Positions 535 to 41,191 of a stretch of 64,000 nucleotides of DNA are shown piece by piece. The stretch is from Aporhodopirellula aestuarii (lineage in GTDB: Bacteria; Planctomycetota; Planctomycetia; Pirellulales; Pirellulaceae). Within the stretch, counting starts at the first letter, position 1; each line of letters opens with the position of its first letter. Location of the stretch: NCBI RefSeq assembly GCF_023701485.1, contig NZ_JAMQBK010000081.1:1-64000 (forward strand). Direction: 5' to 3'. The translations under genes were made by a program, and so were the position numbers. The notes beneath the pieces are model-generated. The model was not told where the DNA came from, made no database searches, and worked only from the letters and a program-made list of their open reading frames with translations.

Positions 535-1926
535 TCACCTTGCCTTCTCTTTCAGCTGCCAGAATCGCTTTCGCATCTCGCTCAACTTCACGGCATACTC
601 AGGATTGCTGACGAGATCTTGTTCCTCGATCGGGTCGTTCTTTAAGTCGAACAGTTGCTCACGGTCGAACTCGGGCCAGTACATGTACTTCCAATTTTTG
701 CGAACGAGTGCCTCGGACGCGGGGATGAATTCGGTGCTTTTGAGCATCGGATGCTCATAGAAGAACTCGTCACGCCACGCCGGTTTTTCGTCCGACAGGT
801 AGAGCGGTCCGATGTCAGATCCCTGCATCGTCTCTGGCGACTCGATACCGACTGCGGAAAGGATCGTCGGTGCGAGGTCAACGTTTAACGTCATGTCGTC
901 GTTGGTGCTGCCCCGCTTGCTGGCCGCCATACGAGGATCACGGATGATCAATGGGACTCGAATACTTTCCTCGTGTGGATACCACTTGTCGGCGAGCCCG
1001 TGTTCGGCGTGATAATACCCATTGTCCGTGGTGAAGATGACCAGCGTGTTGTCGAGGGTCCCCTGTTTCTCCAATTCACCGATTAGCCGACCGCATGTCG
1101 AATCGACCTCCGTCGCCAGGCGATAATAGTTCTTCATCATCGTCTGATACTTTTCGGGCGTGTCAAACCGCCAGTGCCATCGGTTTCGGCCTTCGTTTTT
1201 TTCATTCCCCACGAACTCAGGCAAACGTTCGAAGGATTCCTGGGTGGCGTTGACGGGGACGGGAATCGTGACGTCTTCGTACAAGTCCATACTCTCGGGT
1301 TGCGGCAAAAACTGCAGCGGGTTGTGATCCTCGGCATGCGTCGCAAAGAATGCAACCGTCAAACAGAAAGGCTTGTTATCCGGTCGAGTTCGGAGAAACT
1401 CCATCGCATCGTTTTCGTTCTTCTGCGTCACATGAATTTTTGATCCGTCGTCCTCTTCAATCCAGTGTGTTCCAGAATAGGCCCGAGCAAAATCGAACCG
1501 GTCAGCGGGAATCCTTCCGTTATGCCACTTGCCAACATGACCGACGAAATACCCGTTCTCACGAAGTAGGCCGGGCAGTGTCTCATCCCAAGCGGTGTCC
1601 CACGGCTTGAATGAACGGTTACCGTGCCGCGACATCCATTGGCCGGTGAAAAGCGATGCACGGCTGACTCCACAAATCGCGGTTGTCACATAGTTGTGCG
1701 TGAATCGAACACTTTGTCTGGCGAGTTGATCCAAGTTGGGTGTTTTGACGATCGGATTGCCAGCGACACCGAGCGTGTCATGCCGCCAATCGTCGGCATA
1801 GAGAAGCAGAATGTTCATCTGATTCAGCGCCTTGGTGCCCTCGTCTGCGTCGCATGGTTGCAGGTCGCAATTGACTAATGCGGTAAAGAAACAGAGCAAC
1901 AGAGAAAAATGGGTCAGTTTAAACAT
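535..1926 (-). CDS. Exported sulfatase (S1 family, CGVSR active site)
   Basis: A 463-residue sulfatase predicted to hydrolyse sulfate esters on carbohydrate after export. A hydrophobic N-terminus (residues 6-20) acts as a signal peptide. The metal-binding pair is in ADDWRHD (D45, D46). The formylglycine site is CGVSR at C85, followed by ASLFTG. A second metal and substrate region, [17 protein letters not shown], precedes [11 protein letters not shown]. The C-terminus carries the usual [14 protein letters not shown] block. The third residue of the active-site motif is Val rather than the common Pro or Ala. This is the last gene of the minus-strand cluster, 256 bases after the DUF1080 gene with a stem-loop between them. 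The sulfated substrate cannot be read from sequence. A later start at residue 37 would remove the signal peptide and is less likely. Confidence 0.92.
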
Positions 1927-2072
1927 TTTGGGCTTTATGGGTTACGAATCGATCGTATGAGTATGGGTACTTCATACAAAGTGAATGAAACAATGATAGA
2001 GAATTGGGGAGACGACTTCAGTTGTGGCAGCGGGGCAGGAATGTCTTTGCTGAGAGATTCGTGTTCTCGATT

Positions 2073-2116: not shown

Positions 2117-2182
2117 AGTTTATTCATCACTCTCCCCGCTTGTACATCAGCAAAAAGAGTGCATGCGACGTAGAACACGAGC

Positions 2183-2986
2183 TCAGTCAGCCAACTCTTT
2201 GACTTGGATATTTCTGAACAGGATCGTCCCGGCTTTCCCCTTGTGAACCTGCAGTGCAAAGAATCCGTCGGCATAGGTCTCGTCACCCACCCAGTGCGCA
2301 CACGGAACACCGTTGAGCCAAGTTTTGACCACGTCACCTTGGGCGGATATCGTCACACGATTCCATCCCGTGGCGTCTTCGGCTGCCCGAGCTTTTTTAT
2401 GTTCTTTCAACCACAACGGGTAGAAGTATCCGCCGCAGCTTTGTCCATAGATACCGCCGGACCAGTGTCGGCCGTTCTTACCCTGTCCTTCAATTTCAAC
2501 TTGAGGTCCGTACACGGTCTCTGAAGTTGCCCCTGGCGTTTCTCCCGGTTTCGATTTCGACCGAAACTGGACGCCCGTGTTCCCATCGACTTCCATCTTC
2601 AGGTCGCAAGTAAAGATGAAGTTCTTGTAGTCCGATCTTTCAGTGCAGAGATACGTGCTGTTGGATCCCGGCACGCACGTTCCAATGATCAGGCCTTCTT
2701 TGACTTCGAATGTGCAGGTTCCTCCTTTCGCAATCCATCCGGTCAAATCGGTGCCGTTGAATAGAGGCGTGAAACCTTCTGACAAATCAGGCTCGCCGTC
2801 AGTGTTGAGCAACATCTCTTCGGGTTTGGGCGCGTTTGGTTGCTTGGAATACAGTTTTGCCCATTCTTGTTGTTGCGGATCGAGTTCCTGCCCAACGGCA
2901 TCGTCACTCACGCAAGCCAAGCAAACCAGTGTCACTGGAATCAACAATCGAATGCTCATTGCGTTTTGCCTCGTTAACAGTTTCAT
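2183..2986 (-). CDS. Exported DUF1080 (3-keto-disaccharide hydrolase-like) protein
   Basis: This encodes a 267-residue secreted protein with one DUF1080 domain, a concanavalin-like beta-sandwich found in glycoside-active proteins. The family mark LFNGTDLTGW sits near residue 80, and the tail FFALQVHKGKAGTILFRNIQVKEL closes the domain. The start at 2986 gives a signal peptide (hydrophobic stretch around residues 12-27) and has AGGGA about seven bases upstream. An in-frame start at 3022 would add twelve non-hydrophobic residues. Some members of the family hydrolyse 3-keto-glycosides; others may only bind sugars, so the activity here is inferred. The same domain is fused to a GH78 enzyme at 8383-12321 in this cluster. 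Confidence 0.88.
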   Translation of the reverse strand: MKLLTRQNAMSIRLLIPVTLVCLACVSDDAVGQELDPQQQEWAKLYSKQPNAPKPEEMLLNTDGEPDLSEGFTPLFNGTDLTGWIAKGGTCTFEVKEGLIIGTCVPGSNSTYLCTERSDYKNFIFTCDLKMEVDGNTGVQFRSKSKPGETPGATSETVYGPQVEIEGQGKNGRHWSGGIYGQSCGGYFYPLWLKEHKKARAAEDATGWNRVTISAQGDVVKTWLNGVPCAHWVGDETYADGFFALQVHKGKAGTILFRNIQVKELAD

Positions 2987-3046
2987 TTTTGTTCCCTGGT
3001 TGTAGATGATCTTGAAAAGCATCGTTTCTGTTGTTCACCGGCCACA

Positions 3047-3383: not shown

Positions 3384-5327
3384 TCATTTCGCAAGGATGT
3401 GGGCGGCAGCCTTTGGTTTGGGTAGTTGCACTCGCAATTCGGTTCCGTCGGTGGTAACCGTCGCGTCCACTGTTCTGGTCACTCCGTCGTTCGTGACGGT
3501 GATTTGATAGTCGCCCAAGAAACCGCGTTGCTGACTGTTGCCATCGTCGTCGGTGTGAGTCACTTCGTCGGTCCACCACTGGTTGGCGACCAGGTCGACA
3601 AACACCTCCCCCGCGGGCTTGATTGTCCAATCTGCACGCCACAGCGCCGCGGCGGGTTTCCAATGCATTTTTTCCCAGAATCCCCACTGCACGATTGCCA
3701 CAAAGTTTGGATGGCTAAATGAGGCAATCATCACATCGCGGAAATAGTCCGCCTGCAACGCTTCGTCGTCACCGGCGTCCACATCGAATTCACTGAGTTG
3801 TAGCTTTGGCGCGATCTCGCCAAATTCGTCATAGACTTTCAGCAACTCTTCGGGAGGAGTCAGCGAGGCCAACCCGAAGTGAGCCATGAAGCCCACGATA
3901 TCAGCCGGCTGGCCTTGTTCGTTGAGATAGCGAATGATCTCTTTGTATGGTTCGCGTTTGTAACCGTCCGGAAGGATCTTGCCCTCATTGATCGCGTGGG
4001 TCGCGTTCGGTGCGAGGCGACGAGCTTCGGCCATGATCTCCGCGTAGATTTTGGGGCTGCCATACTCTTTTTCGTAGGTGTGTTTTCCCCAGCCGATGAT
4101 GTGATTGATGGTGTCCCACTCGGTGACAAACTCGCTGGTTGCAGGTAGCACGTCATTCATGTGCGCCCAGAGCCACTCGCGATGAGCCTTCGGATCACCG
4201 ACGAATTCCTTTTCGATTGAATTAAAATCCATCGGAGCCCAAGCAACGTAGTGTCCTCGCACGTTGATGTTGTTACTACGCAACCAAGGAAGAGATTCTT
4301 CGAAAAAGATTCGGCGTTTTCGACGTGCCCCCGCGTTATCTCCCTTGAGCCCTTTCCATACGTGAGGCCGCAGTTCCGATTCAAAGGTTACCCGATCAAA
4401 ATATCTCTTAACAACCTCGCGGTACTTTAGAGCTTCATCCCAGGTGACGATAATCTTTTTCTTAGGATTGACCGGGAAGTCCTCTTTGGCTGCCCCGATT
4501 ACCTCAGAGTTGATCGTGTTTCCGAACCCGAACGCATGCTTCTGCATCGCGACATGAACGCTTGCGTCCGAAATAGGTTGCCCCTCGGAATCAACAACCG
4601 TGATGGCGAGATCACCCTTGCGGATTTTCTCGATCCGCGCGAGTGCTTCTTTTCGCCACTGGGCATCTTCCTGGCGGCCATCGTACATGATCGTTGACCG
4701 GGGTAGCGTGCCGATGTCGTACGCAGATCCGTAGTTAATCAGCCGCAAATCGGCGATCTGCACCCTTGGGCCAGCTTCGCCCAAATTGAATCGCAGGCAA
4801 GCTTCGGACGAATCAAAATCACCTGTTGCCACAAACGAACGAACGTGCTGTACCCACTCTTTGTACGCAGACAAGTTGTATTGATAGGATGTTGATTCCG
4901 GCTTTGCATCAACGAAAAGGTAGGCGTTGTTGGGTTGGCCGCCGGCACCAGGACGTCGCATCCAAAATGAAATCAGCACGACGTCGCCCTTGCTAACCGT
5001 TCCGTGAACTGGAACCCGTACTCGCATGTTTTCGGGGTCGCTGAAACGCGTGTCTGATTCGATACTGTAAGCATTGGCGAACGGCATCTCTTCGACCGAG
5101 ATCCACTTGCCGTTTGCTTCCACATGCTGCGATTGAAAATCGATCGGTTTCTCGGGGCCGAACGTCGTGAGATCGTGCCCACCAGGCGGCGGAGTGATCG
5201 CAGTACCTGTCGCAACCGACTGTTCTGCGGTGCTAATTCCTGCCAACGCGACCAGCAAAAATGCAATACTGAGGGCCTGCCGAATCAACGGTAATTGGTG
5301 TGATGTGAGCCGAGCGGTGAATGTCAT
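3384..5327 (-). CDS. GH10-like endo-xylanase with carbohydrate-binding N-terminus, acid/base residue replaced
   Basis: A 647-residue exported protein with a signal peptide (residues 18-34). Residues 55-200 look like a jelly-roll carbohydrate-binding module, and residues 235-580 form a GH10 TIM barrel. GH10 landmarks are visible: VTFESELRPHVWKG near 313, RGHYVAWAP near 357, and the nucleophile region LSEFD with E513. The acid/base segment normally reads WDVVNE, but here it reads WDTINH, so H409 replaces the catalytic Glu. The protein may therefore be inactive, use another residue, or act as a binding protein. GH10 enzymes cleave beta-1,4-xylan; a xylose-containing polysaccharide would fit the cluster. 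The start codon overlaps the stop of the upstream GH78 gene by four bases (ATGA), which suggests translational coupling. Confidence 0.87.
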   Translation of the reverse strand: MTFTARLTSHQLPLIRQALSIAFLLVALAGISTAEQSVATGTAITPPPGGHDLTTFGPEKPIDFQSQHVEANGKWISVEEMPFANAYSIESDTRFSDPENMRVRVPVHGTVSKGDVVLISFWMRRPGAGGQPNNAYLFVDAKPESTSYQYNLSAYKEWVQHVRSFVATGDFDSSEACLRFNLGEAGPRVQIADLRLINYGSAYDIGTLPRSTIMYDGRQEDAQWRKEALARIEKIRKGDLAITVVDSEGQPISDASVHVAMQKHAFGFGNTINSEVIGAAKEDFPVNPKKKIIVTWDEALKYREVVKRYFDRVTFESELRPHVWKGLKGDNAGARRKRRIFFEESLPWLRSNNINVRGHYVAWAPMDFNSIEKEFVGDPKAHREWLWAHMNDVLPATSEFVTEWDTINHIIGWGKHTYEKEYGSPKIYAEIMAEARRLAPNATHAINEGKILPDGYKREPYKEIIRYLNEQGQPADIVGFMAHFGLASLTPPEELLKVYDEFGEIAPKLQLSEFDVDAGDDEALQADYFRDVMIASFSHPNFVAIVQWGFWEKMHWKPAAALWRADWTIKPAGEVFVDLVANQWWTDEVTHTDDDGNSQQRGFLGDYQITVTNDGVTRTVDATVTTDGTELRVQLPKPKAAAHILAK

Positions 5328-8251
5328 AGTGCTGTTGAATAGGTTGCTAGAGTTATTTGATGCCTTCCTGAAGGCAGGCGAATGGACTGCTTCTTTTGAA
5401 CCACCGCGGTTCGATTTAGCGGGTGTGGTTGATATCCATCGAGGTCATGTGCTTGGCCGTTAAGCATGATGGACTTGATGGATTCCGCCGCTAACACGAA
5501 TTCACCGGTGCAGTTTGCTGGGATGATCAGTTCGATCGCGTAGTTATCATCGCCGATCCGCTGCCAGCGAATGCTTGTCGGGCCCTGGATCGAATCGAAG
5601 TGGTACTCGGCATCATCCACCTGGCTGATGAATTGCGGTTCGAAAAGGATGTTCTTGAATCCCGGCTTTGTCAGATCGCAGCGAATCCCAGCGATGTATC
5701 GCGTCAGGTAGTTGTCGACGTAGCCCAAGAAGTGATGGATGCGGGAACCGCCGCCGGTCCAGTGTTCCCATACTGTCGTAGCGTCATTCGCCAACATCTT
5801 GCCGTACCCCGGAAAGGTATCGGTGGAAAGCACATCATGAGCGAGCTCGGCATGCCCGGATTGTGGCATGACTTCCCACGCAGCTTGACCCGTGAAGATG
5901 CCTCCATAGACATGCAGGTCGCGATCAACCGTGATGTCCTGAATCAACCGCTTCAAGACTGCTTCGCAGTGTTCTGGCTTGGCGATGCGGCAATACAGTG
6001 CCATCGCGTTGGGGCCCTGACGATACCCTGACGGTTTTGTGCCTGTGAAAACGGTTTGATTGGCATCAAAACAGTGCGTGTAGAGTGCCTGGCGAACTTC
6101 TTCGGCTTGCGACTTGAAATCCATAGCGTCCTCCATCTTGCCCAGAACCTCCGCCATGTGCGCCATCCGCTGTAGCACCAGAAAGAAGTTCATGGTGGCG
6201 TAGACTTCCACACCCTCTTCGCCTTTATTGCCATGCGGTGACGTCCAGTCGCCGTAACCGTCTTTGAAGATGCCCCGTTGTCCCGGCACACCGTTGTGTT
6301 TCCACACGCCTTCGGTAAAAAGTGAAAGCCTGTCCCAATTGCGCTCGAAGATTCGGGTATCACCGTAAGTTTGATACATGTACCAAGAGACATGAACACA
6401 GGCGGCTGACCACAGCGGCGAACGGCCACGCTTGCGAGCGTTGCTGTTGCAAGGCGCGATCGCAGCCATGCTGCCTTCGTCATCCTGGGTATCGAGCATG
6501 TCGCCGACAAACTTGGTCATCAAAGCGGCCAAGTCATAATTGGCCATCCCGTATTCCATGCCGGTAGTAGCATCACCCATCCAACCATTCTTTTCACGGT
6601 GCGGGCAGTCGGTGGGGATGCTATGCAGATTGGATGTCAACGAGCGACGGCAAATCATGTGCAGTTGGTTCAGCATCGCATCGGACGTTTGGAATGTCGA
6701 CACATCGGTCACGTCCGAGTTGACTTGGCAGACCTCGACATCATCGGCGGTCAAGGGCTTGTCGTGTCCCTTGATCAACGCATAGCGAAACCCTTTATAT
6801 GAAAAGTGACATTCAACAACTTCACCCGGTTCGCCTTTGGCAACGTAAGCATTTTGCTGGTAACCGCCGGGCTGGCTGTGTGTGAGTGGATCCGAGTCTT
6901 CACCGTAGTAAATGGTGATGGGGGTACCTTTGGGGGCATCTACCTTGACGCGCAGCCAGCCCGCCAAGTTGGTGCCGGCATCAACGAGGAAACTTCCTCG
7001 ACCGCCTGGTTTAACGCCGACGGGCCGAAACGTTTTCACCACACGGATCGGCTCACAGAGTTGCGATTTCAAGTCACCTTCGGGCGCAGGAGCCGAATGT
7101 ACCGAGTCCCAACCGGCGTCATCAAATTCGGGTGTATTCCAACCAGGAATTTCCTTCGTTGCGTCGTACACTTCGCCCATGTGGGGGCAATCGTATTGAA
7201 TGGGACCGCCGGTGACTTTCCAACTCAGGTCGCTGACCACGTTGTCCGTCGTCCCATCTTCATAGTCAATCTTGATCAGGCACTTCAGCTTCGGTTGGCC
7301 AATGTAGCCGCCCTTCTTGTAGAAGCCCCAGTGATCCAGAGCGAGCATCCCATAGTTGCCGCGTCCCAGCATCACTCCGATCGCATTGTCACCGTCGCGA
7401 ACCAGGTCGGTTACATCGTGCGCGACATACAGTACCGTTCGGTTGTACTGGGTCCAACCGGGATCCAGCACATGGTCGCTGACGCGGGATCCATTGAGGA
7501 ACAATTCATGATACCCCAGGCCGCAAATGAAGACCTTGGCACTAGCGATCGGTTTCTTCGCGGCGAATGTTTTGCGCAGCAGCGGCGCGGGATCGTATCG
7601 GTTATCGCCATGAAAATACATACGCTCGAACATATTCATTCGGGCACCGAAGTACGAAGGAAGATAGAATTCCTGGCATTTCAATTCGACCTCTTTACGC
7701 TTCCACCACGCATCTTGCCAAGTGTCGTGTTCTTTCCAAGCGATCCACTGAGAATCCGTCCAATCACCATCGATTAGCAGTCCCGTAGCAAACTTGGCCA
7801 TTTGGCTCCATTTTGATGGTTTGTCGTCTCGGCCCCAAACGCGAACTTTCCAGTAGTAATCCGTGGCGGATGACAGAGGTTTTCCGTGGTATGCGATGTG
7901 GACGCTGCCGTCGTGCTGAGCCTTGCCAGAATCAAAGACATTGCCTTTGTTTTCTGCGATCAAGGATTCACTGGACGCCACGATTAATTGATAAGCGGTT
8001 TGGACGACATCGTTTTTTTCTGAAGTGACCTGCCAGAAGAAACGCGGATCAGGCATATCGATACCTTGCGGATCGGTCAGGTATTCGCACTTCAGTTCGG
8101 TCGGTTCGATGTCTGCGAACTGGCTCGAATCATGAAGAGACGAACTCCCTGCTTTTTCAACGTCCTGTGGCCGCGCATCATCCGACCGCGTGATGCCCAA
8201 AAAAGCGATCACGAGGAAGAATACGTAAATCTTTGGCGTGGTGGGGGGCAT
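5324..8251 (-). CDS. Exported GH78 alpha-L-rhamnosidase
   Basis: This 975-residue protein has a signal peptide (residues 7-22) and the standard GH78 layout: an N-terminal fibronectin-like domain (TELKCEYLTDPQGIDMPDPRFFW), a beta-sandwich with GLGYHELFLNGSRV, an (alpha/alpha)6 barrel and a C-terminal beta-sandwich. The catalytic segment DCPHREKNGWMGD supplies D548, the presumed general acid E553, and D560, with the spacing known from characterised GH78 enzymes. The general base is probably E829 in ATTVWEHW. It should release terminal alpha-L-rhamnose by inversion. It ends four bases inside the following GH10-like gene and starts 131 bases after the GH78-DUF1080 gene. Exact linkage and substrate are not deducible. 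Confidence 0.94.
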   Translation of the reverse strand: MPPTTPKIYVFFLVIAFLGITRSDDARPQDVEKAGSSSLHDSSQFADIEPTELKCEYLTDPQGIDMPDPRFFWQVTSEKNDVVQTAYQLIVASSESLIAENKGNVFDSGKAQHDGSVHIAYHGKPLSSATDYYWKVRVWGRDDKPSKWSQMAKFATGLLIDGDWTDSQWIAWKEHDTWQDAWWKRKEVELKCQEFYLPSYFGARMNMFERMYFHGDNRYDPAPLLRKTFAAKKPIASAKVFICGLGYHELFLNGSRVSDHVLDPGWTQYNRTVLYVAHDVTDLVRDGDNAIGVMLGRGNYGMLALDHWGFYKKGGYIGQPKLKCLIKIDYEDGTTDNVVSDLSWKVTGGPIQYDCPHMGEVYDATKEIPGWNTPEFDDAGWDSVHSAPAPEGDLKSQLCEPIRVVKTFRPVGVKPGGRGSFLVDAGTNLAGWLRVKVDAPKGTPITIYYGEDSDPLTHSQPGGYQQNAYVAKGEPGEVVECHFSYKGFRYALIKGHDKPLTADDVEVCQVNSDVTDVSTFQTSDAMLNQLHMICRRSLTSNLHSIPTDCPHREKNGWMGDATTGMEYGMANYDLAALMTKFVGDMLDTQDDEGSMAAIAPCNSNARKRGRSPLWSAACVHVSWYMYQTYGDTRIFERNWDRLSLFTEGVWKHNGVPGQRGIFKDGYGDWTSPHGNKGEEGVEVYATMNFFLVLQRMAHMAEVLGKMEDAMDFKSQAEEVRQALYTHCFDANQTVFTGTKPSGYRQGPNAMALYCRIAKPEHCEAVLKRLIQDITVDRDLHVYGGIFTGQAAWEVMPQSGHAELAHDVLSTDTFPGYGKMLANDATTVWEHWTGGGSRIHHFLGYVDNYLTRYIAGIRCDLTKPGFKNILFEPQFISQVDDAEYHFDSIQGPTSIRWQRIGDDNYAIELIIPANCTGEFVLAAESIKSIMLNGQAHDLDGYQPHPLNRTAVVQKKQSIRLPSGRHQITLATYSTAL

Positions 8252-8382
8252 TGATTTTGGATGGGTGAATGTGGTGACTTAATTGGTGCGATTAGGATGC
8301 AATCGTTCAATCGTTAGCGGTAGGAGTACTTTTTGACCTTCATGCACGCCTTCGTCTGACGACTATACGGATAAGAATTCCA

Positions 8383-12321: not shown

Positions 12322-12404
12322 GTTCAAGCTAATAATCGTCTAAGTGTTGTGTGTTGCTGCGTCACATCGAGGTTCGGTGCAAGCTAAAGTTAAATCGTAA
12401 ACTC

Positions 12405-15431: not shown

Positions 15432-15440
15432 GGTGGGGGC

Positions 15441-21760: not shown

Positions 21761-21850
21761 GAGTAGGGATGCGATCAGATTCAATTGATCAGAAATGTTG
21801 GCGAAAAAGGCCGCGAGTAAACGATGAAAGAGAAACGAGTTTGGTTTCGG

Positions 21851-27800: not shown

Positions 27801-28212
27801 CTTCGGGCGTGATCCACGGACCTCCACTGCTCGACCATCCCGCACAATTATGAAAGCACACTTCCAAACCGAGTCGATCGGCTTCCTCGATTGCGTGTTG
27901 CATCAGCCGACGCCAATCATCACTCAGGTACTTGACCGGCCCCGGTGACATTCGGCGTTCGATTTGGAATGCCTGAAATCCACCGATGCCGGTTCGCTTC
28001 ATCGCTTCCAAATCAGCAGTGATGCCTTCGCTCGACACATACCCGTTCATCCAGTGCCACCATGTGTGTGGTTTGGCAGAGTTCGGTGGCGATTGGAAAT
28101 GTTCTCGCAGCGAATCGGTCGCGGATAGACTCCAACTGTTAGCACAGATCGAAACGAACACCAATAGTTGCGACAGAATTAGTTTTGCGTGAAATCGGTG
28201 TCCGAAACTCAT
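24805..28212 (-). CDS. Exported GH106 alpha-L-rhamnosidase
   Basis: A 1135-residue GH106 enzyme. The opening LREHFQSPPNSAKPHTWWHW, then NGYVSSEGITADLEAMKRTG and GLEVCFHNCAGWSSSGGPWI, is diagnostic for the family. The barrel continues with LNNILVDSYEVMEQNWT, LKLSIEPYG and AEAFTAG. The C-terminal third has a GH2-like jelly-roll with AVIFNGEDVGTLWKPPFNVEVTG. The ATG at 28212, one base past the upstream stop, begins a proper signal peptide; the frame is open to 28413, but that part overlaps the preceding gene. GH106 enzymes remove alpha-L-rhamnose from complex glycans by inversion. Tight packing with the other GH106 gene and the BNR_4 gene suggests a shared transcript. Confidence 0.93.
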   Translation of the reverse strand: MSFGHRFHAKLILSQLLVFVSICANSWSLSATDSLREHFQSPPNSAKPHTWWHWMNGYVSSEGITADLEAMKRTGIGGFQAFQIERRMSPGPVKYLSDDWRRLMQHAIEEADRLGLEVCFHNCAGWSSSGGPWITPEASMMKVAWTEQRVAGPRPVTIKLERPTDRDNYSRDIAVLAFPTPHSESQGKPGFRIDNWQAKAGFERDNHIQSDTRTVDPGDVISTDTIVDLGDKMTAEGKIMWDVPHGDWTVVRFAYTPTAVRNRPAPQEGRGYECDKLSKAAVDLHWENCVQKVLDDAGPLAGKVLNNILVDSYEVMEQNWTKGLEIEFQKRMGYDLKNYLPVLTGRVVTNMDVSERFLWDFRRVIADLLTENYYQHFADRCHRSGLKLSIEPYGKPGNLDNFAVADVADIPMGEWWARTPPGLHFGSSKMAASAAHTNGRRIVGAEAFTAGRATAAFVQHPYRLKAQGDYFFCQGVNRFIFHTFVHQPWANDVLPGMTMGPWGFQNNRNNTWYEQGKAWNEYLTRSQYLLQQGSFQADLCYFPGENAPQACPNRNDMQPAVPDGYDYDTISCDKFMQLTVQDGRIVLPGRMQYRVLVMPEGPVRQQVFEKAHQLLKSGGHLVWAKPQRAPGLQNYPDSDRVLQQTANALWGECDGNEVRENVVGQGKVYWPGSLQKILASLDVPPDVEFHSVQPIATTLYSGVGYEWIHRSIDDVDVYLISNQQEVARQVEVTFRVDGRTPQLWNAQTGGIKQAPVYEPTDDGRTRVQLFLDSAEAIFVVFDEPSKNRSVVDILHNGSTPFSNGEKRAESLVIHRATYGDLNGDASRHVDVTERVRSKIANNAINVEVKWDLFGLDPAPGSLKQLRVNYSVGQEKFSTVVNQNEMLVLNRVTNPIPASAEPATLAISSESIALHAWEPGTYELVYSDGNRNSLEVPTIPEAIDLSTDWKLQCPRVWGPENVVLDRLVSWTEHSDPELKYFSGTAIYRKNFDVPADRIGRDRLVRLDLGDVKLFAEVIFNGEDVGTLWKPPFNVEVTGLVQPGKNQLEIRVTNLWVNRLIGDERFESVERYEPNVKPGEGLIVEIPAWLENSTQRPATKAKTFTTWKFHTQDSPLLESGLLGPVKLDFAIRKTLEP

Positions 28213-28213
28213 G

Positions 28214-32674: not shown

Positions 32675-32732
32675 GAACCCTTTTCGATACGACTGAGGTG
32701 AAACGCATTGATCGCCCACCATTCCATGAATG

Positions 32733-34724
32733 TTAGATAACAGAGACTTGGCACTGGACGGTTGCATTAGGCTTGGACAACTTCACGACGATCGGAATCG
32801 CTTCGGCGCCGGGGACCATGTTGAAGACCCGCCCCTTTTCAGTTGCTTTGATCGACATCGGAGCATCCGATTCGACGACAACGGTGCCTTGCGGCTTGAC
32901 GATTTCGATTCGTGTCTCGGAGACTTGCCGGACTTCCTCACCCGACGGCGAAACGATCGGAAGCACCAACGACGCCTCGGTTCCCTTCACTGCCTGAGGC
33001 GAAACAGAAGCCGAGATATGTGCCTGAGTGCCGTTGAACTGATAACGAAGTTCGCACGCCGAAGCGTCGCCGGCGAGCTTGTTGCGCGACTCGTCTTGCA
33101 GCGAAGTTTCGACCTGAATGTCGATCTGCTGCCCGTCGTCTTTGGCGGACACTTCGGCAGTCAGATCGTACAAGTTCGTAAACCAACCGCCCTGGTCTCG
33201 ACTTTCGACGCGAGTCGTCAGAGGGAAATCCTCGCCGGGCTGCGGCTGCATGTTCAGCGGCTCGACCATCTCGTAGCGTGCCATGCTCGATGCGAGCAGC
33301 AGGCCGACTTTTTCGTGATAGAGCACCGCGAGCGAACCGCCGGTGGGTTGCTGCAAGAGCCCAGATTTCTTGGTCTTGTAGATCGAATCGTACGCCGAAA
33401 CGGTCGCTCGCCACGGACCGCGGGCCGCCAACCACACATTCAGTTCAGGAAAGTGATTGATTCCGTCTGCCGTCTGACGCGGCAGAGGCGTGCTGCTGTC
33501 GACCTTGGGCATCGCGTGCATTTTGTCCTGCACCAGTGCCATCACTTTGGCGTGAGCGAACGTGTGGTGCATGCAGGGTTGAACGCCATGGGAAACGTAA
33601 TGCGGTCCGCCGTGCAAAAGCCCGTCGGCGGTGCATCGCTGCAACAACTCAGCATTCTTAATCGCGGCAGTCCCGAACGCCGGGTTATAGCCCGCCATCA
33701 AGCTGAACGCTGGCTGGCACCCGTCCGACGTGCGGCTACCCCAGTAGCTCCACTTCTGTGAACGGGTGCCCCAGCTGTTATCCCACGCGCCATCAGGCAA
33801 CATAAATTCCAGGTGACCGTTTAAAGTCTCGACGGCGAGATCAAGCATTTCCTTGTCATCGACCTCGAGTGCGTAAAGAACAACACCGTTGAGCGATTCT
33901 TCGACGTTGTAACCAAGGTCCACCGGCAGCAATCCGCGACCGCTGCGGTTGTCATTCGGTTTTCCTTCGCCCCACAGCAGCGTGTTCGGCTCCGTGAAGA
34001 ACTCCTTGACACGTTTGGCGAACTGTTCGCTTCGCTGCGTGTATTTCGAGTTATTCAACAGTCGACCAAACAGGTGGAAACCGTAAACCCCGGTCATCCC
34101 GTAGTTCAGGTTCGTGAAATCGATCGTCTTGAAATCGCGATAGAGATAACCACCAACGGCTTCGTCAAGTCGCTTTGTCCAGGCGGCTCTCCGCGCCTCG
34201 TCCAATACTTCCCCATGGTAATGCAGTGCTTCGGCGAGCGCGATCGCACCAAAGATGGTCGTGCCTCGCCAAGCTTTCGGATTGATGTCGTTGGTCCAAC
34301 TTCCATCGGGTTGGCTGACATTGTTCTCGGCCCAGTCATAAACGTTGATCGCCGCGTCGAGGTATTTCTGTTCGCCGGTCACGTGCGCCAGATGCAAAAA
34401 CGGATACAACGCGTCGCTGCAGCGACCGTGAATATGGCTGCATGACGGGCAGAGAAGCGCGCCATGACGACTCGGATCGCTGGGATCGTTCACCTGCCGT
34501 CGGATCATGCCGTCGCACCAATCTAACAGGAGGCTGTTCGTCAGCTCATGGAAGCGAGCGTTGTCATACGAGGGTTCGGTGCCACCACTTTGTTCGGCCG
34601 CATGACCAACGAATGGGTTCAGAACAACACCCGACACCAGGGAAACTCCCGTGAAACTCGCAAGTGCCGACTGAAAAAATTGACGTCGATTTGTGCCGGT
34701 ATGTTTTTTCATTGAGTTACTCAT
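32733..34724 (-). CDS. Tat-exported alpha-toroid protein with beta-sandwich tail, candidate lyase or hydrolase
   Basis: A 663-residue protein with a twin-arginine signal (NRRQFFQSALASFTG, residues 12-26). The ATG at 34724 has GAGGAGG seven bases upstream and overlaps the sulfatase stop as ATGA. Residues 70-440 look like an (alpha/alpha) toroid: repeated helices with LHLAHVTGEQKYLDAAINVYDW, GSWTNDINPKAWRGTTIFGA, NYGMTGVYGFHLFGRLL and GAWDNSWGTRSQKWSYWG. A Cys-x-x-Cys with His (CPSCSHIHGRC) sits near residue 93. The rest is beta-rich, like the C-terminal sandwiches of polysaccharide lyases. I do not recognise a named family; lyases and unsaturated uronyl hydrolases share this fold. The Tat signal suggests that it is folded, perhaps with a metal, before export. 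Confidence 0.8.
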   Translation of the reverse strand: MSNSMKKHTGTNRRQFFQSALASFTGVSLVSGVVLNPFVGHAAEQSGGTEPSYDNARFHELTNSLLLDWCDGMIRRQVNDPSDPSRHGALLCPSCSHIHGRCSDALYPFLHLAHVTGEQKYLDAAINVYDWAENNVSQPDGSWTNDINPKAWRGTTIFGAIALAEALHYHGEVLDEARRAAWTKRLDEAVGGYLYRDFKTIDFTNLNYGMTGVYGFHLFGRLLNNSKYTQRSEQFAKRVKEFFTEPNTLLWGEGKPNDNRSGRGLLPVDLGYNVEESLNGVVLYALEVDDKEMLDLAVETLNGHLEFMLPDGAWDNSWGTRSQKWSYWGSRTSDGCQPAFSLMAGYNPAFGTAAIKNAELLQRCTADGLLHGGPHYVSHGVQPCMHHTFAHAKVMALVQDKMHAMPKVDSSTPLPRQTADGINHFPELNVWLAARGPWRATVSAYDSIYKTKKSGLLQQPTGGSLAVLYHEKVGLLLASSMARYEMVEPLNMQPQPGEDFPLTTRVESRDQGGWFTNLYDLTAEVSAKDDGQQIDIQVETSLQDESRNKLAGDASACELRYQFNGTQAHISASVSPQAVKGTEASLVLPIVSPSGEEVRQVSETRIEIVKPQGTVVVESDAPMSIKATEKGRVFNMVPGAEAIPIVVKLSKPNATVQCQVSVI

Positions 34725-36028
34725 TGGGCTGCCTCCTCGTTCATCCAAGCGTGAATCATCCCTTCCAGTTTTTGCACCGTGGCCGGGTGTTGTGTGGACA
34801 GGTCGTTGCGGTCATCTGGGTCGTGTTTCAAGTGATAAAGTTCGCTACCAGACGGGCGAGCGATCAATTTGTGCCAACCATCAATCACCACGCGAGCAAC
34901 CAAACCGCTGCCCAAGTCTTCGAGTTGATCCAAATCGCTGTCGTGTTCATACACGTCAACAAACACACGGTTGCGTTCCTGCAACGCCTCGGGATCACGT
35001 AGATCGAGCCCGGTCATTTCCGCAGGCGGTTGGATACCACAGGCATGCAAGATGGTCGTTGCGATGTCAATATTGCTAGCCAGCGTTGTTTTGTCGCGCG
35101 CGGGTTCGATGGTGCCTTCGTGAGTGACAAAAATCGGCGTGCGGATTCCCGCTTCGACTGGCTCCCGCTTCGAGCGAATGCTGGCATTCGTACGCTCAGG
35201 ATTTTGAACCCAGCCGTTATCACACGTGAAAACGAAAATGGTGTTCTTGTAGATATTCTTCTGCTTCAAGTAATCCACTATCTGGCCACAACCTTCATCG
35301 AGCCATTCCACGTTAGCCCAGTAGCGTGCCGTCGGCTCGTCTGGGGCGATATCCTTGTACTTATTGAAGAGTCGATCCGGTGCGTTGTGAGGTGCGTGCG
35401 GCAGAAAGACGCCGTACCAGATGAAGAACGGCTGCTCGTTCTCATTGGCTTTGTCGACAAAATCATAGATCGGCTGCATCGTCTCACGGCCAATCCTCAA
35501 ACCAACGTCACCGTGGCGTCCGCCGCGAGAGTGATTACCATGGGTCATCGCATCGGTAAAACCGTGATCGAGCGGATTGCCTTCCCACCATTTGCCGGTC
35601 TGCAGCGTCGCGTAACCGCTCTTCTTTAGTTCCTTTACGAACGAAGGAAACTCACGCATCGGCGCGGTCATTCGATTGCGGAACTCGGTGGAGATCGCAC
35701 GGTACTTTGCCTCTTTACGATTGGTTCCCGCAGGCAACATCGGATCGTTTCCGCGGATGCCGATTTGGTGCGGGTACATCCCCGTCACAAGACTGGCGAG
35801 CGACGGCCGACACAGTGGAGCGGTGACGTATCCCCGCTCATAAACCAATCCACGTTTCGCTAATTCATCGAGGGCTGGAGTTTGGATATGGGGATGCCCC
35901 ATCAACCCATAATCATTCCAACCTTGGTCATCACTCAACAGAAAGACAACATTGGGACGATCAGCATCGACGGACGTGGCGCTCAAAAGTGCCAGGAAAC
36001 AGAATACGGCAAAACGGTTCATCATCAT
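34721..36028 (-). CDS. Exported sulfatase with variant CRPSL active site
   Basis: A 435-residue S1 sulfatase. A signal peptide covers residues 5-22. The metal site is LSDDQGWNDYGLMGHP, and the formylglycine segment is APLCRPSLASLVTGMYPHQIG with C73. The canonical Arg two positions after the Pro is Leu here; the rest of the motif is normal, so maturation may still occur. Further marks are LQTGKWWEGNP, PFFIWYGVFLPHAPHNAPD, FTCDNGWVQNP and the terminal LYHLKHDPDDRNDLS. It should hydrolyse a sulfate ester on a glycan fragment. The stop overlaps the start of the Tat-exported protein, and 33 bases separate it from the upstream sulfatase. Confidence 0.9.
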   Translation of the reverse strand: MMMNRFAVFCFLALLSATSVDADRPNVVFLLSDDQGWNDYGLMGHPHIQTPALDELAKRGLVYERGYVTAPLCRPSLASLVTGMYPHQIGIRGNDPMLPAGTNRKEAKYRAISTEFRNRMTAPMREFPSFVKELKKSGYATLQTGKWWEGNPLDHGFTDAMTHGNHSRGGRHGDVGLRIGRETMQPIYDFVDKANENEQPFFIWYGVFLPHAPHNAPDRLFNKYKDIAPDEPTARYWANVEWLDEGCGQIVDYLKQKNIYKNTIFVFTCDNGWVQNPERTNASIRSKREPVEAGIRTPIFVTHEGTIEPARDKTTLASNIDIATTILHACGIQPPAEMTGLDLRDPEALQERNRVFVDVYEHDSDLDQLEDLGSGLVARVVIDGWHKLIARPSGSELYHLKHDPDDRNDLSTQHPATVQKLEGMIHAWMNEEAAQ

Positions 36029-36061: not shown

Positions 36062-37483
36062 CTATTTTCGAGGGTTCTTTGCAGACTTTTTTCGAGGAAC
36101 CCAAGTCTCGGGGGCTTCGAGCATCAAAGGCGGATGAAACACCGTCAACGCGTCGCCTTGATCCTCAATCCAACGGTTCAATTCTGAAGTCAGCTCGTGC
36201 TGAACGGACGAAAGCTCTTCACGGCCGGCCAAATTGCTCAGTTCATTCGGGTCGTTTTGCAGATCATACAACTCGTACTTGGGACGGCCGTAATAGCGGG
36301 CGACCACGGCGGCGGCGTGCGCATCGGTCTTCGCAGCTTCTGTCCATTCTTTGAAGTAGTCACCCGACGTCTCTCGCAACAGCAGATCGATATACGAGGT
36401 GAACGCAAAATCGGGATGCGGATTCCAAATCAACTTATAGCGGCCCGTTCTCACGCTGCGACTCAGGTACACGTTCATCAACAGATCACCACTGTGCGTC
36501 GTGAAAATCTGGTCGCGATGCGAATCGCTTTGCCCACTCAGCACCGAGGCGAAAGAACGGCCATCCAGGCCCTCGGGAACTTCACCACCTGCGATGTCAA
36601 TCAGCGTTGGCAGGATATCGACCCAGCTAACCATCGCGTCGGTACGAGATCCGTGTTGAACCCGACCGGACCGCGCCACGATTAAGGGTACACGAATACC
36701 TTCGTCGTAAAGCGTCCACTTACCAAAGGGATACTGAGCCCCGTGATCGCTCGAAAACAAAAACACGCTGTCATCGGACAGATGCTTGTCCGTCAACTCG
36801 CGAAGTTCACCCAAATACGCATCCAGATCCTTGACCTCTTGCAAGTATCGCGAACGCTGGACTCGCGTGCGTGGAGTATCTAGCAACTGCGGCGGCATCG
36901 TCATCGAATCGGGATCGACAGTCGATTCGCTGGGCCAAGGCACGTGCGGATCCGAGACGCCAACAAAGAGGGCCAGCGGCCGTTTGTCGGTTCGGTTTTC
37001 GAGAAAGCCTTTGACCGTCACCTGCAAGTCGGGAATATTCTGTTTCAGGTCATAGACGTCAAAGTGGTAGTCGGGGGCACTACGCAAATGCGCAACTTTG
37101 CCAAAGGCAGCGGTTTGGTAGCCAAGGTCACCTAGCACCTTTGGAAGACGCAGAACATCTTCACGCGGGTAGCTGTGATTTTCCTCAGCCCCATTTCGCG
37201 CAGGCATCAATCCGGTCAACAGCGCCGCCCGACTGACCGCACACGATGGGCTGGCGACAAATGCGCGGTCGAATGTCATGCCATCGGCGGCCAACTGATC
37301 AATCGCAGGCGTCTGAATATTCGTGCCGCCGTAGACCGGCAGATCTCTCGCCGACAGATCGTCCGCCAAATAGACAACGATATCCGGCAACGGTTGCTCA
37401 TCGCATAGCGCTGGCATCGCAAAACCCACCACCACGCAGCCCGCGATAAGTCGACCTGCGAGCCTAATCATTAGTTTATTCAT
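36062..37483 (-). CDS. Exported sulfatase (S1 family, CAVSR active site)
   Basis: A 473-residue sulfatase with a signal peptide (residues 6-27). Landmarks are VVYLADDLSARDLPVYG, the formylglycine site CAVSR at C81 followed by AALLTGLMPARNG, FGKVAHLRSAPDYHFDVYD, LFVGVSDPHVPWP, and FSSDHGAQYPFGKWTLYDEGIRVP (in blocks). The terminal ELYDLQNDPNELSNLAG block is complete, followed by a basic tail. The Val in the third motif position is shared with the sulfatase at 535-1926. A second possible start lies four codons in. It is the first gene after the repeat-rich gap that separates it from the GH2 gene, so a promoter may lie in 37484-38113. Confidence 0.91.
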   Translation of the reverse strand: MNKLMIRLAGRLIAGCVVVGFAMPALCDEQPLPDIVVYLADDLSARDLPVYGGTNIQTPAIDQLAADGMTFDRAFVASPSCAVSRAALLTGLMPARNGAEENHSYPREDVLRLPKVLGDLGYQTAAFGKVAHLRSAPDYHFDVYDLKQNIPDLQVTVKGFLENRTDKRPLALFVGVSDPHVPWPSESTVDPDSMTMPPQLLDTPRTRVQRSRYLQEVKDLDAYLGELRELTDKHLSDDSVFLFSSDHGAQYPFGKWTLYDEGIRVPLIVARSGRVQHGSRTDAMVSWVDILPTLIDIAGGEVPEGLDGRSFASVLSGQSDSHRDQIFTTHSGDLLMNVYLSRSVRTGRYKLIWNPHPDFAFTSYIDLLLRETSGDYFKEWTEAAKTDAHAAAVVARYYGRPKYELYDLQNDPNELSNLAGREELSSVQHELTSELNRWIEDQGDALTVFHPPLMLEAPETWVPRKKSAKNPRK

Positions 37484-38113: not shown

Positions 38114-41100
38114 CTATTGGCTTGCGACTGGCCTACAGAAAAGAATCATATTGAGGTGGGAAGTTCGCCCCTTTCCTTGGTCCGCATTGCCGGGGATACG
38201 CAGCCCTTCGTTCTTTACAAGACGCTTTGTGTAAAGCTGCAGTTTTCCTCGATTCAGAAGAACTTGGTCATCGGTTTTCTGGAACCCTTTCAGCCAATTT
38301 GGTAGCGGCGCCTTGGGATCGTGCGCTACGAAGAGCTCGAGGTCCTGTCCAGCGGTTGCAACGATGTAGTCGGCGGCCCAGTAAGCACTGTCATTTTTGG
38401 CCGTACGTATGACTTGGCAGTTCGTTAAGTAGCCGGGAACCTCCTTGATGTAGATCCTGGCTTCATCAGAATAGGGAAGCATTTCGTGTTGATAAGGAGT
38501 TTCTATTCCGCCAGCACCATTGCCCGTGTAGGCAAACATCGAGAACAAGCGATCGCCTTCAGTCGCTTCAGCAAGCGCAACCGGAGGAGCGTTTCTCAGC
38601 TTGGAAAGCTCCGCAAGCTTGTCCGCATCGATGTCGGGGCGTGATGGAAGCGACGTCTCAAAAACGGGCGGAAGCGTATTCAGGATACCACCGTGAATCG
38701 CGACCGGGTTTGATTTCAGCCGCAGTGTTGCGGACGCTAGGCCGTCGCGTCTCGCCACAACAGTGACTTCGCCGGCTTGCAAAGTCGATCGGATACTGAC
38801 GCGATTGACCCCGCACTCGGTGTCGAGATATCGATGGTTAATACTGTCTTCCTTACCACTGTTATAGCCACCACGCCAAATCCCTGGACCAGACACATCA
38901 AAATCGACGCGAGCCTGATCGGTAGGGCAACGTCGGCCTTGCGCATCGACAACTTCAAAGTCGACCAGAGCAATATCCGAACCGTCTGCACGCCATCCAC
39001 CAGGGGCTGTTATTGGCGTAAGCCGAATCGCGACGGGCTCTCCCGCGGTTTGTTTGACTTGCGATGCGACCTCGTCACCATCGCGAAACGCAACCACTTT
39101 GATCTCGCCCGGTTCGAACGCGACGTCATGCCAGGTAAACAAGGTGTCGAAACTGCGTTGCCCCTCGCCGAGGCTTTTGCCGTTAACAAACAACTCCGCT
39201 CGATCCGCTTTCGAAACCGCGTACATCGGCTTCACCGATCCCGGCGGGTAGTTCCAATGCCCGATTAAATGGACGCGGTCTTCGTGATCCCACGTTGCCT
39301 GCAATGCCCAATACGCTTCCTTGGGCAACCGCACGGCGTCGACTTCACCGGTCGCCCGGGCGCAATCGGTTCGTTGCCGCGTTCCGTGTGTCCCGTCTGA
39401 GAAGATCCAGTTCGCACCTCCCGAGTGATCAGGCTTGCTTCCAAACAAAGTCCACCACTCTTCGATCGCGTTGGTTGCAAAACCTTCCGATGTGAGGTTG
39501 TAGGTATTCAATTCAGCGAGCTTGCCGAGGCTGCCAAAATCCGGTGGAGAGTATTTGTCCCAAACACGGCGAGGTGTCTCGGTCCGGTCATACTCAGTTT
39601 CCACGACGGGCAATGATGGGAACGCGCGTGTTCGTCCCACCGTTCCCAATTCCAAGTCGATGCTTTCAACCATTTCGGGCGTCGACATACGGAAGCCAAA
39701 ATAGCGTTGTCCGCGAGGATCCCATTTTTGGGTGATCGCTTTCATTTCGGCGGCATGGCTTGGGCTAACGCTATAGTTGCCGCCTTCCCAGACACAGATA
39801 GCGGGATGATTGCGATAGTAGATGATCATGTCGCGGAACGCCGCGGTGCGAATCTGCCAGGCTTCGCCGTGACAATCTTTCTCGCCGTCGACACCCGGCA
39901 TGATGGTCACAAAGCCATATTTGTCGCTGCTTTCAACCCCGACGGCCGGCCCCGCACAGTGCCCCCAGCGGATCAGATTGCCACCGGCCTCTTCCATTAA
40001 CTTCAGAGTGTAGTCGTGCATCCAGTTCGGAATGCCGGCTCCCAATCCGGCCCACCCCGCAATCGGCTTCTGGCCCCATCCGTGCAGTTTGAGAGGATGA
40101 CCGTTGATCCAAAAACCCGTGTCCCTGTCAAAACGATAGTTGCGAAAACCGAACGGGCTGGTGCTTTTGTCACGTTTAATTCCATCCACACTCACCGCGA
40201 CCTCCACCGTGTAGACATACGGATAGTCGGGTTCCCACAAGTGCGGGTCGGTGACGTTCAGCGATGACTCCACCTTAGCTCTCTCGCCCGCTGCGATCTT
40301 GGCTATCGTCTCAGTGCAAGCAACGATTTCGCCATCGTGTCCACGCAACGAAAACGTCACAGTCGCATCGGCGTCCACCTGCTGTGCGTTTTCCACTTCT
40401 GCGGTAAGGCCAACGGTCGCTCGATCTTTGCTGAGCGATTCAGTCCATGAGTAAACGCCCTCAGTCCCCAGCTTTCCATACAGTGGTAACGTCACATGGA
40501 CCGGATCAAGCACGTGAAGATAGACGTTGCGATAGATTCCTCCGTGAGGTGGATGCCAGTTCTGATGGTGCCAAGGCGTGGTGCCGGCGTAGAGCTCCGG
40601 TTCGACCGTATTGTTTGCCTTGACGGCCAACACGTTCTTCCCGGTCTTGCTGAGGTACGGGGTCAGGTCAAACCCAAACGGAATGAAACCAGTCTTGTCT
40701 TGACCGAGGTGATGCCCGTTGAGATAGACATCGGCGATCTGTCGGACGCCCTCGAACTCGATAACGATTTGCTTGCCCGCCGTGTCCGCTGGCAGCGAGA
40801 ACTCTTTGCGATACCACGCCGTTCCCTGCCACAGGTCAGTTTCGCCTTGGTGACCGCCGGTGCCAAAATCGTCGAACGTGTCGATGTCGTTCCATGTGTG
40901 AGGACAGCTAACGGTGGTCCATTCACTGTCGTCAAACGTTGGCGACTCAGCCCCCTTGGCATCATCGCGAACGAAACGCCAACCCGCGTTGAGGTTCATT
41001 TTTCTCGGCGTGGCTTGGATTCCCTGTGACTCGTCTGCACGGACATCGCACCCCAGCAACGATGCCAAAAAGACGAGGGTCAAGAATGCCAATCCGCGTG

Positions 41101-41191
41101 CCGGTGGCGGGCATGAACGAAACAACGCTGGGGACGCGGCGAAGAAGGCAACCTTGCCAAACCGATCAGGACCGAGATTAGGGGCGGACAT
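38114..41191 (-). CDS. GH2-family glycoside hydrolase, probable lipoprotein, atypical acid/base site
   Basis: A 1025-residue GH2 protein. The N-terminus is long; a hydrophobic stretch (34-46) ends in LLGC at C48, which reads as a lipobox. A sugar-binding jelly-roll (GWRFVRDD, AWYRKEFSL, VYLNGHHLG) leads to an immunoglobulin-like domain, then the barrel from FWINGHPLKLHGWGQK. The nucleophile is probably E533 in VVETEYD. The usual NE acid/base position in LWSLGNE is here VWEGGNY, with Y473 in place of Glu and E469 nearby. This variant may define a subgroup with a displaced acid, or an inactive one. The residues after about 700 are beta-rich. It may act as a beta-galactosidase, glucuronidase or similar exo-enzyme at the head of the cluster. 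Confidence 0.88.
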   Translation of the reverse strand: MSAPNLGPDRFGKVAFFAASPALFRSCPPPARGLAFLTLVFLASLLGCDVRADESQGIQATPRKMNLNAGWRFVRDDAKGAESPTFDDSEWTTVSCPHTWNDIDTFDDFGTGGHQGETDLWQGTAWYRKEFSLPADTAGKQIVIEFEGVRQIADVYLNGHHLGQDKTGFIPFGFDLTPYLSKTGKNVLAVKANNTVEPELYAGTTPWHHQNWHPPHGGIYRNVYLHVLDPVHVTLPLYGKLGTEGVYSWTESLSKDRATVGLTAEVENAQQVDADATVTFSLRGHDGEIVACTETIAKIAAGERAKVESSLNVTDPHLWEPDYPYVYTVEVAVSVDGIKRDKSTSPFGFRNYRFDRDTGFWINGHPLKLHGWGQKPIAGWAGLGAGIPNWMHDYTLKLMEEAGGNLIRWGHCAGPAVGVESSDKYGFVTIMPGVDGEKDCHGEAWQIRTAAFRDMIIYYRNHPAICVWEGGNYSVSPSHAAEMKAITQKWDPRGQRYFGFRMSTPEMVESIDLELGTVGRTRAFPSLPVVETEYDRTETPRRVWDKYSPPDFGSLGKLAELNTYNLTSEGFATNAIEEWWTLFGSKPDHSGGANWIFSDGTHGTRQRTDCARATGEVDAVRLPKEAYWALQATWDHEDRVHLIGHWNYPPGSVKPMYAVSKADRAELFVNGKSLGEGQRSFDTLFTWHDVAFEPGEIKVVAFRDGDEVASQVKQTAGEPVAIRLTPITAPGGWRADGSDIALVDFEVVDAQGRRCPTDQARVDFDVSGPGIWRGGYNSGKEDSINHRYLDTECGVNRVSIRSTLQAGEVTVVARRDGLASATLRLKSNPVAIHGGILNTLPPVFETSLPSRPDIDADKLAELSKLRNAPPVALAEATEGDRLFSMFAYTGNGAGGIETPYQHEMLPYSDEARIYIKEVPGYLTNCQVIRTAKNDSAYWAADYIVATAGQDLELFVAHDPKAPLPNWLKGFQKTDDQVLLNRGKLQLYTKRLVKNEGLRIPGNADQGKGRTSHLNMILFCRPVASQ

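Follow-up and report, generated by a model that had tools for sequence, protein, structure and literature searches.

Planctomycetes are rich in sulfatases whose targets are mostly guesses, and the locus described here suggests a concrete, testable substrate for one such enzyme set. The locus lies in Aporhodopirellula aestuarii (genome of 9.07 Mb in 165 contigs), within the first 64,000 bases of the 144,364-base contig NZ_JAMQBK010000081.1; we refer to this whole 64,000-base stretch as the window. Seventeen genes on its minus strand, between positions 535 and 41191, encode putative rhamnosidases, sulfatases and other carbohydrate-active proteins (Table 1). Judging from sequence comparisons, we consider it very likely that they constitute a largely exo-acting set for the breakdown of ulvan, the sulfated cell-wall polysaccharide of green seaweed, or of a polymer with the same units, in which rhamnose 3-sulfate (Rha3S) is joined to glucuronic or iduronic acid (GlcA/IdoA) or to xylose with or without a 2-sulfate (Rha3S–Xyl(2S)). 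We infer ulvan rather than a close relative of it. The observations are of three kinds: family membership, active-site residues and conserved neighbourhoods.

Sulfatases by themselves are weak evidence, because the genome is full of them. It contains 153 sulfatase matches (150 of 227 candidates scored), so that 0.69 would be expected in the stretch, and at least five have P of ~7e-4 in a Poisson estimate that ignores clustering. GH106 genes number three genome-wide, and two of them are in this locus. More weight is carried by what individual enzymes are and by the genes that accompany them in other genomes. The case for ulvan rests on such single enzymes and is independent of the rhamnosidase count: the locus encodes (i) a homologue of the ulvan-oligosaccharide dehydratase P29, (ii) a sulfatase resembling P18_S1_7 and (iii) a candidate PL42-type lyase. 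These three proteins support the proposal of a first-pass annotation, made from the sequence and its open reading frames (ORFs), that the target is ulvan or a related polymer.

Enzymes that point to ulvan

The Tat-type toroid protein is a homologue of the Formosa agariphila dehydratase P29_PDnc, with the dehydratase function predicted from conserved residues. Eight residues have been mutated in P29: D248, E254, E255, D269, D290, R300, K303 and Y306 (PMC8511951). The window toroid keeps all eight with the same spacing (D272, E278, E279, D293, D314, R324, K327 and Y330), and its alignment with relatives of 54–84% identity shows the ungapped pattern D-x5-EE-x13-D-x20-D-x9-R-x2-K-x2-Y. All eight are present in 20 of the 22 aligned rows, the window's included, and the other two rows differ at the Y306 position only, where the P29 mutant remained active (PMC8511951). 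Mutation of D248, R300 or K303, which correspond to D272, R324 and K327 here, inactivated P29 (PMC8511951; one inactive variant is printed there as both R300E and R230E, and we adopt R300). The toroid has no match in the Pfam copy or the NCBIfam library searched; dehydratase homologues bear the labels PF25840/PF25841, which the window protein did not match in that Pfam copy. Its structural model, of moderate confidence (mean pLDDT 69.8), consists of a helical domain and a beta-sandwich resembling glycosaminoglycan lyases, and the top Foldseek matches are toroid lyases (E 7.7e-10), in agreement with the first-pass description of a Tat-exported toroid. In the dehydratase tree the nearest neighbour of the host is Rhodopirellula rubra (84%), with R. 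maiorica next, inside a planctomycete clade. The planctomycete dehydratases fall into a single clade (support 99 by a quick method), so there is no sign of a recent acquisition from flavobacteria.

Sulfatase S1b has as its closest solved relative 6HHM, which is P18_S1_7, an ulvan endo-2-sulfo-D-xylose sulfatase (PMC9096561). This relationship, with bit scores as given in Table 1, and the formylglycine motif CAPSR assign S1b to the S1_7 (P18) type on sequence grounds. The nearest solved structures are S1_8A for S1e and 7an1 for S1c; those of S1d are 6bia and an S1_16 carrageenan sulfatase, at ~113 bits. S1d and its 14 relatives of at least 38% identity in dehydratase loci, which span planctomycetes, other members of the Planctomycetes–Verrucomicrobia–Chlamydiae (PVC) superphylum and Bacteroidota, all carry C-x-P-S-L at the formylglycine motif, rather than C-x-P-S-R.

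The third enzyme had been likened to the PL24/PL25 ulvan lyases. Its BNR_4 propeller assignment stands, but the PL24/PL25 parallel is not supported: the best match in the PDB is the PL42 enzyme FoRham1 (7esk, 1.8e-51), followed by 5muk (1.1e-26), which, like 5mvh, we take to be GH145, whereas ulvan lyase chains match at 8.1e-11 or weaker (Uly1, presumably PL25, at 8.1e-11 and short ulvan lyase at 3.7e-8 or weaker). Of 13 FoRham1 active-site residues (taken from PMC8377490 and PMC10951650), 12 are kept, the exception being Tyr26, which is His (H70) in the propeller. The His-His-Asp triad and the neutralising Arg (D83, H85, H105 and R166) are D119, H121, H142 and R203 in the window protein, and among the rhamnose-binding residues Y26, N275, Q276 and R331 and the supporting E381, four of five are retained. 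At each of nine positions (D83, H85, H105, Y150, R166, S170, Y202, R220 and R331), at least 118 of the best 120 of 1023 homologues have the FoRham1 residue. The propeller is thus predicted to be an exo-type lyase that removes rhamnose from Rha-alpha-1,4-GlcA by beta-elimination. Ulvan lyases cleave a rhamnose–uronate linkage of this kind.

Neighbourhoods in other genomes

Dehydratase relatives number 247 in public genomes, and we examined the best 80 loci over ~±10 kb, some of them cut by contig ends. By tree labels these comprise 12 loci from Planctomycetota, 7 from other PVC bacteria (one Kiritimatiellota) and 61 from others (60 Bacteroidota and one Pseudomonadota); fractions below follow this order. 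Neighbours were counted with domain-trimmed queries at 1e-20, with no random control loci and kinship uncorrected. S1 sulfatases occur near the dehydratase in 9/12, 5/7 and 40/61 loci, GH106 (queried without its C-terminal domain, discussed below) in 4/12, 2/7 and 26/61, and GH78 in 6/12, 1/7 and 42/61. The GH78 count may be low, a GH78 catalytic domain in planctomycete locus L006 having been found by Pfam and left uncounted at 1e-20. In that locus the gene upstream of S1e (5998–8466) encodes this domain fused to DUF1080; in several further dehydratase loci, a DUF1080 match next to a weak GH78 match points to a fusion of this kind, at a place where the window has GH2. In many flavobacterial loci the dehydratase gene has genes for GH78, GH106 and sulfatases nearby. 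Some members of the ulvan gene set recur across phyla without SusCD. The propeller is found in 6/12, 2/7 and 4/61 loci, and relatives of at least 45% identity in 5/12, 1/7 and 0/61, a contrast partly due to kinship.

The closest named relative, R. rubra, has the same block from GH2a to S1a, with 13 shared genes at 72–90% identity and one further GH78 at 31–39%; the window exceeds this block by GH106a and two GH78 genes. The 3' end of our cluster may be cut, because the window starts at the first base of the contig. The R. rubra block stops at the same gene, S1a, the next sulfatases there being on the opposite strand, and no window-protein matches were found in a stretch further out in R. rubra or in one of our contig beyond the window.

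GH78d was searched in 21 dehydratase genomes, with a match at 1e-100 in 12. In nine non-planctomycete genomes with matches of at least 60%, all nine matches share a contig with the dehydratase gene, at a distance of no more than 1.2 kb in six and of 25 to 107 kb in three. Identity is 60–67% over the C-terminal two thirds and 52–58% over the N-terminal third; flavobacterial relatives are 56–60% identical over the whole protein. Assignment of GH78d to the Formosa P20 enzyme was rejected: 6gsz, which we take to be P20, is the third PDB match, at 172.8 bits versus 356.5 for 6i60.

Several observations weigh against the ulvan interpretation. No endo-acting ulvan lyase could be recognised among the window proteins, and FoRham1, with its exo action on rhamnose-capped gum arabic, offers no account of how the polymer is first cut. 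Neither GH88/GH105 nor GH3 is found among the 30 ORFs scanned with Pfam (of 59 in the window of at least 150 residues), and a genome-wide search gives a single divergent GH88 match, on another contig, at 78.9 bits and above the Pfam cut-off. For some enzymes, few loci have a relative close to the dehydratase: S1b (identity of at least 35%) has one in 1/12, 1/7 and 11/61, the clan GH-A protein in 1/12, 0/7 and 1/61, and the GH10-like protein in 2/12, 0/7 and 0/61. The enzyme set is also not fixed: in 9 of the 21 genomes, R. rubra included, a search at 1e-100 gave no GH78d match, and the R. rubra block has a counterpart of neither GH78d nor GH106a.

Removal of unsaturated uronate

Unsaturated uronate ends are expected because the dehydratase and the PL42-type enzyme should both produce them. 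In Formosa GH105 clears them; here this step is left as a gap, with no close GH88/GH105 to perform it. Genome-wide searches for dehydratase, the C-terminal domain of GH106b and GH88 covered 33 of the 80 loci in 31 genomes (12 planctomycete, 4 other PVC and 15 non-PVC). GH88/GH105 (PF07470) was present at E < 1e-60 in all 15 non-PVC genomes, 2/12 planctomycete and 2/4 other PVC genomes, and in 6 of the 12 planctomycete genomes there was no match even at 1e-3. A survey of the host's family covered 241 genomes (22 dehydratase-positive and 219 negative), several of which recur between the two samples. Here GH88/GH105 at 1e-30 was found in 4/22 positive and 47/219 negative genomes (Fisher p = 1); within the host genus, the dehydratase is present in 8/13 genomes and GH88/GH105 in 0/13. 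The divergent GH88 protein of our genome could still perform the step.

A second route would run through the toroid itself. P29 eliminates water from GlcA/IdoA-Rha3S, and the reaction was reversed in vitro (PMC8511951). If the P29-type enzyme worked as a hydratase, the PL42-type lyase would make unsaturated ends, the toroid would hydrate them to GlcA/IdoA and the GH2 protein would remove these, leaving GH88/GH105 unneeded. The host-genus counts, set against the 15/15 non-PVC genomes, and the proximity of close propeller relatives to planctomycete dehydratases favour this arrangement, but the direction is unreadable from sequence, the host does have its divergent GH88, two planctomycete dehydratase genomes have strong GH88/GH105 and 7 of the 12 planctomycete loci lack such a propeller in the stretch examined. 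We regard the hydratase route as doubtful.

The last 262 residues of GH106b, absent from the earlier gene list, form a nucleoside-hydrolase-like (NHL) domain. It matches nothing in the family libraries searched, NCBIfam and Pfam among them, and gives 654 protein matches at 1e-3; the motif DGNSPDPDD is invariant. A confident structural model shows the fold of nucleoside hydrolases. Fold relatives, at 8–16% identity, are Saccharophagus protein 2yhg and the nucleoside hydrolases, whose activity is a candidate function for NHL. Among dehydratase genomes, strong NHL matches were obtained for 6/12 from planctomycetes, 4/4 from other PVC bacteria and 15/15 from non-PVC groups, and in these 25 genomes NHL is on the dehydratase contig in 22 and within 40 kb in 19. 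In the family survey it is present in 10/22 dehydratase-positive versus 3/219 negative genomes (p 1e-9, phylogeny uncorrected), within ~6 kb of the dehydratase in 8 of the 10 genomes with both. A 298-residue ORF holding NHL adjoins the dehydratase in R. maiorica, NHL forms the end of a 956-residue protein in Neorhodopirellula, and one metagenome protein (P0251) with NHL is also labelled with a dehydratase domain. In the order of Paraglaciecola NHL is rare (4/295 genomes sampled), and two annotated loci of those four have sulfatase, GH78 and BNR_4 genes, one of them also two GH88 genes. By these sequence associations NHL belongs with dehydratase-type loci, though 6 of the 12 planctomycete dehydratase genomes are without it.

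NHL as a plain substitute for GH88/GH105 was rejected. The two occur together in all 15 non-PVC genomes (NHL at E < 1e-99, GH88/GH105 at E < 1e-60), and both are missing from 9 of the 22 dehydratase-positive family members (thresholds of 1e-60 for NHL and 1e-30 for GH88/GH105). Replacement of GH88/GH105 is possible as, at most, one of several NHL roles. A literature search, with most subscription papers outside its coverage, found nothing linking an NHL-type fold or DUF1593 with ulvan or polysaccharide enzymes; judged from this search of limited coverage and from the family libraries, the domain is undescribed. As a conserved domain accompanying the dehydratase, it is open to direct assay. We put forward only tentatively, as a proposal with the balance somewhat against it, the combination in which NHL would be an undescribed nucleoside-hydrolase-fold carbohydrate-active family for ulvan in several phyla and planctomycetes would have a GH88/GH105-free pathway in which the PL42-type and P29-type enzymes share the unsaturated-uronate step.

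Proposed pathway and alternative substrates

For ulvan as the substrate, the most probable sequence of steps is as follows. Sulfate would be removed by the S1 sulfatases, with xylose as the site for S1b and S1e, given their likeness to S1_7 and S1_8, and rhamnose for the others; the GH78 and GH106 enzymes would remove terminal rhamnose. The PL42-type lyase may take desulfated terminal rhamnose off uronate by beta-elimination, giving an unsaturated end, and the P29-type enzyme would interconvert GlcA/IdoA ends and unsaturated ends, in whichever direction. The GH10-like, GH-A and GH2 proteins would cut xylose- and uronate-containing pieces. The liberated rhamnose may pass into a microcompartment; the genome has two bacterial microcompartment shell genes, and microcompartments for fucose and rhamnose are described in this superphylum (PMC8857213).

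The missing endo cut could be provided by the toroid if it were a broad-specificity ulvan lyase and not a dehydratase, as its match to the toroid lyase fold would allow. We think this unlikely, P29 having had no lyase activity on ulvan from seven sources (PMC8511951).

The substrate could instead be a sulfated rhamnose polymer from green algae or microalgae, such as rhamnan sulfate, that lacks the uronate backbone of ulvan, with GH106 and GH78 doing the main work. GH106 acts on rhamnan sulfate, and six rhamnosidases and five sulfatases in one locus would suit such a target. In Verrucomicrobiota of diatom blooms, GH78 and GH106 among sulfatases have been tied to rhamnose-containing polysaccharides (PMC8857213). 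A rhamnan-type target leaves the P29-type and PL42-type enzymes (both of which require uronate beside rhamnose) and the xylose-2-sulfate-type sulfatase without a role, however, and we consider it very improbable. Least probable of all is a rhamnose-capped uronate glycan other than ulvan, arabinogalactan-like or a diatom exopolysaccharide, from which the PL42-type enzyme would remove the caps: the nearest solved relative of the propeller is indeed the gum arabic enzyme FoRham1, but the P29 homologue, the P18_S1_7-like sulfatase and the neighbours shared with flavobacterial dehydratase loci speak against it.

Gene assignments and other features of the window

The gene content given in the first-pass annotation is largely borne out. 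Pfam confirms four GH78 and two GH106 rhamnosidases, and also the GH10-like, GH2, BNR_4 and DUF1080 proteins, all on the minus strand. The clan GH-A hydrolase has no Pfam match even at E 10; an NCBIfam ArfA match (E 1e-8) is far under the cut-off, and NEP and TEW are present, which we take to be GH-A motifs. Five S1 sulfatases are intact as described. The additional sulfatase remnant is real, but it lies outside the interval at 45935–47325, as two ORFs in different frames (45935–47068 and 46813–47325). The DUF1080 domain fused to GH78b had been missed. The start of S1c is uncertain: the ORF-caller start, 23701, falls within the neighbouring gene.

Table 1. Features of the locus, in gene order from position 41191 downward
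Feature	Position	Strand	Evidence
GH2a protein	38114..41191	-	Pfam; NCBIfam GalA 7.1e-111 and LacZ4 glucuronidase 2.7e-59, both below cut-off
S1e, S1 sulfatase, nearest solved S1_8A, motif CAVSR	36062..37483	-	Pfam 6e-36; 9bb9 1e-35
S1d, S1 sulfatase, CRPSL replacing C-x-P-S-R	34721..36028	-	Pfam 1e-46
Tat-type toroid, P29_PDnc homologue	32733..34748	-	8/8 mutated P29 residues; toroid lyase fold
GH106b, GH106 part	29003..32767 (whole protein 28214-32767)	-	Pfam 6.6e-183
NHL, C-terminal nucleoside-hydrolase-like domain of GH106b	28214..29002	-	
GH106a; start probably downstream of 28413	24805..28413	-	Pfam 1.5e-194
BNR_4 propeller, PL42-type L-rhamnose-alpha-1,4-glucuronate lyase candidate	23296..24789	-	Pfam 4.7e-70; PDB 7esk 1.8e-51
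S1c, S1 sulfatase, motif CSPSR	21851..~23290	-	Pfam 1.9e-59
GH78d rhamnosidase + F5/8C domain	18593..21784	-	Pfam 2.6e-52
Clan GH-A protein (GH39/GH51-like)	17042..18511	-	weak GH51/GH39 PDB matches; NEP, TEW; 79% in R. rubra
S1b, P18_S1_7-like S1 sulfatase, motif CAPSR	15441..17045	-	PDB 6HHM 436.6 bits, runner-up 235.3 bits
GH78c rhamnosidase	12513..15431	-	Pfam 6.8e-112; 81% in R. rubra
GH78b rhamnosidase + C-terminal DUF1080 domain	8383..12327	-	Pfam 7e-43 and 7.1e-36
GH78a rhamnosidase	5324..8251	-	Pfam 6-hairpin domain 1.6e-68
GH10-like protein	3384..5327	-	Pfam GH10 1.5e-23; PDB 7d88 beta-xylanase 6.1e-28
DUF1080 / 3-keto-disaccharide hydrolase-like protein	2183..3022	-	Pfam 8e-36; 87% in R. 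rubra
S1a, S1 sulfatase, motif CGVSR	535..1926	-	Pfam Sulfatase 5.3e-45; 79% in R. rubra

Beside the locus, on the plus strand (43412–45906), an extracytoplasmic function (ECF)-type sigma factor is followed by a LamG-domain protein, a possible regulator pair. Nearby, at 42047–43303 and 48359–49633, are two DUF1559 proteins, each bearing an N-terminal methylation motif. Apart from the main block on the minus strand are a second GH2-like protein with an F5/8C domain (49915–53403) and, adjoining it, a sixth intact sulfatase with the motif CTPTR (53891–55450). At 57657–63998 is a protein of more than 2,100 residues that combines cadherin-like/Big_9 repeats with a dockerin domain. Rfam, tRNA and composition scans of the window gave nothing relevant to the question.

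Comparison with known ulvan systems

The closest known system is the ulvan polysaccharide utilization locus H (PUL H) of F. agariphila. Both have a P29-type dehydratase, a P18_S1_7-type sulfatase, GH78, GH2, a GH39/GH51-like protein and S1 sulfatases. The window has no recognised SusC/SusD, GH105/GH88, GH3, PL28 or PL40, and has instead GH106, a GH10-like protein and a PL42-type propeller. SusC/SusD is, we assume, present in the Formosa PUL; the pair typical of Bacteroidota PULs is not found among the 30 window ORFs scanned, nor is any transporter family, as the first-pass annotation had also noted. The Formosa enzyme list used here is that of PMC8511951. Planctomycete dehydratase homologues are already mentioned in that paper, the sections of which consulted here do not describe the rest of the locus, the link to PL42 or the NHL domain. 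Compared with PL42 (FoRham1 and the former GH145), the propeller is likewise a BNR_4 protein sharing nearly all of the active site, but it has His for Tyr26 and stands in a sulfatase-rich bacterial locus. The NHL domain differs from nucleoside hydrolases and 2yhg in its low identity, its lack of a Pfam match and its placement in polysaccharide loci. The predicted ulvan route differs from the well-studied one of Formosa, and in all likelihood the locus is a planctomycete variant of the known ulvan-type locus.

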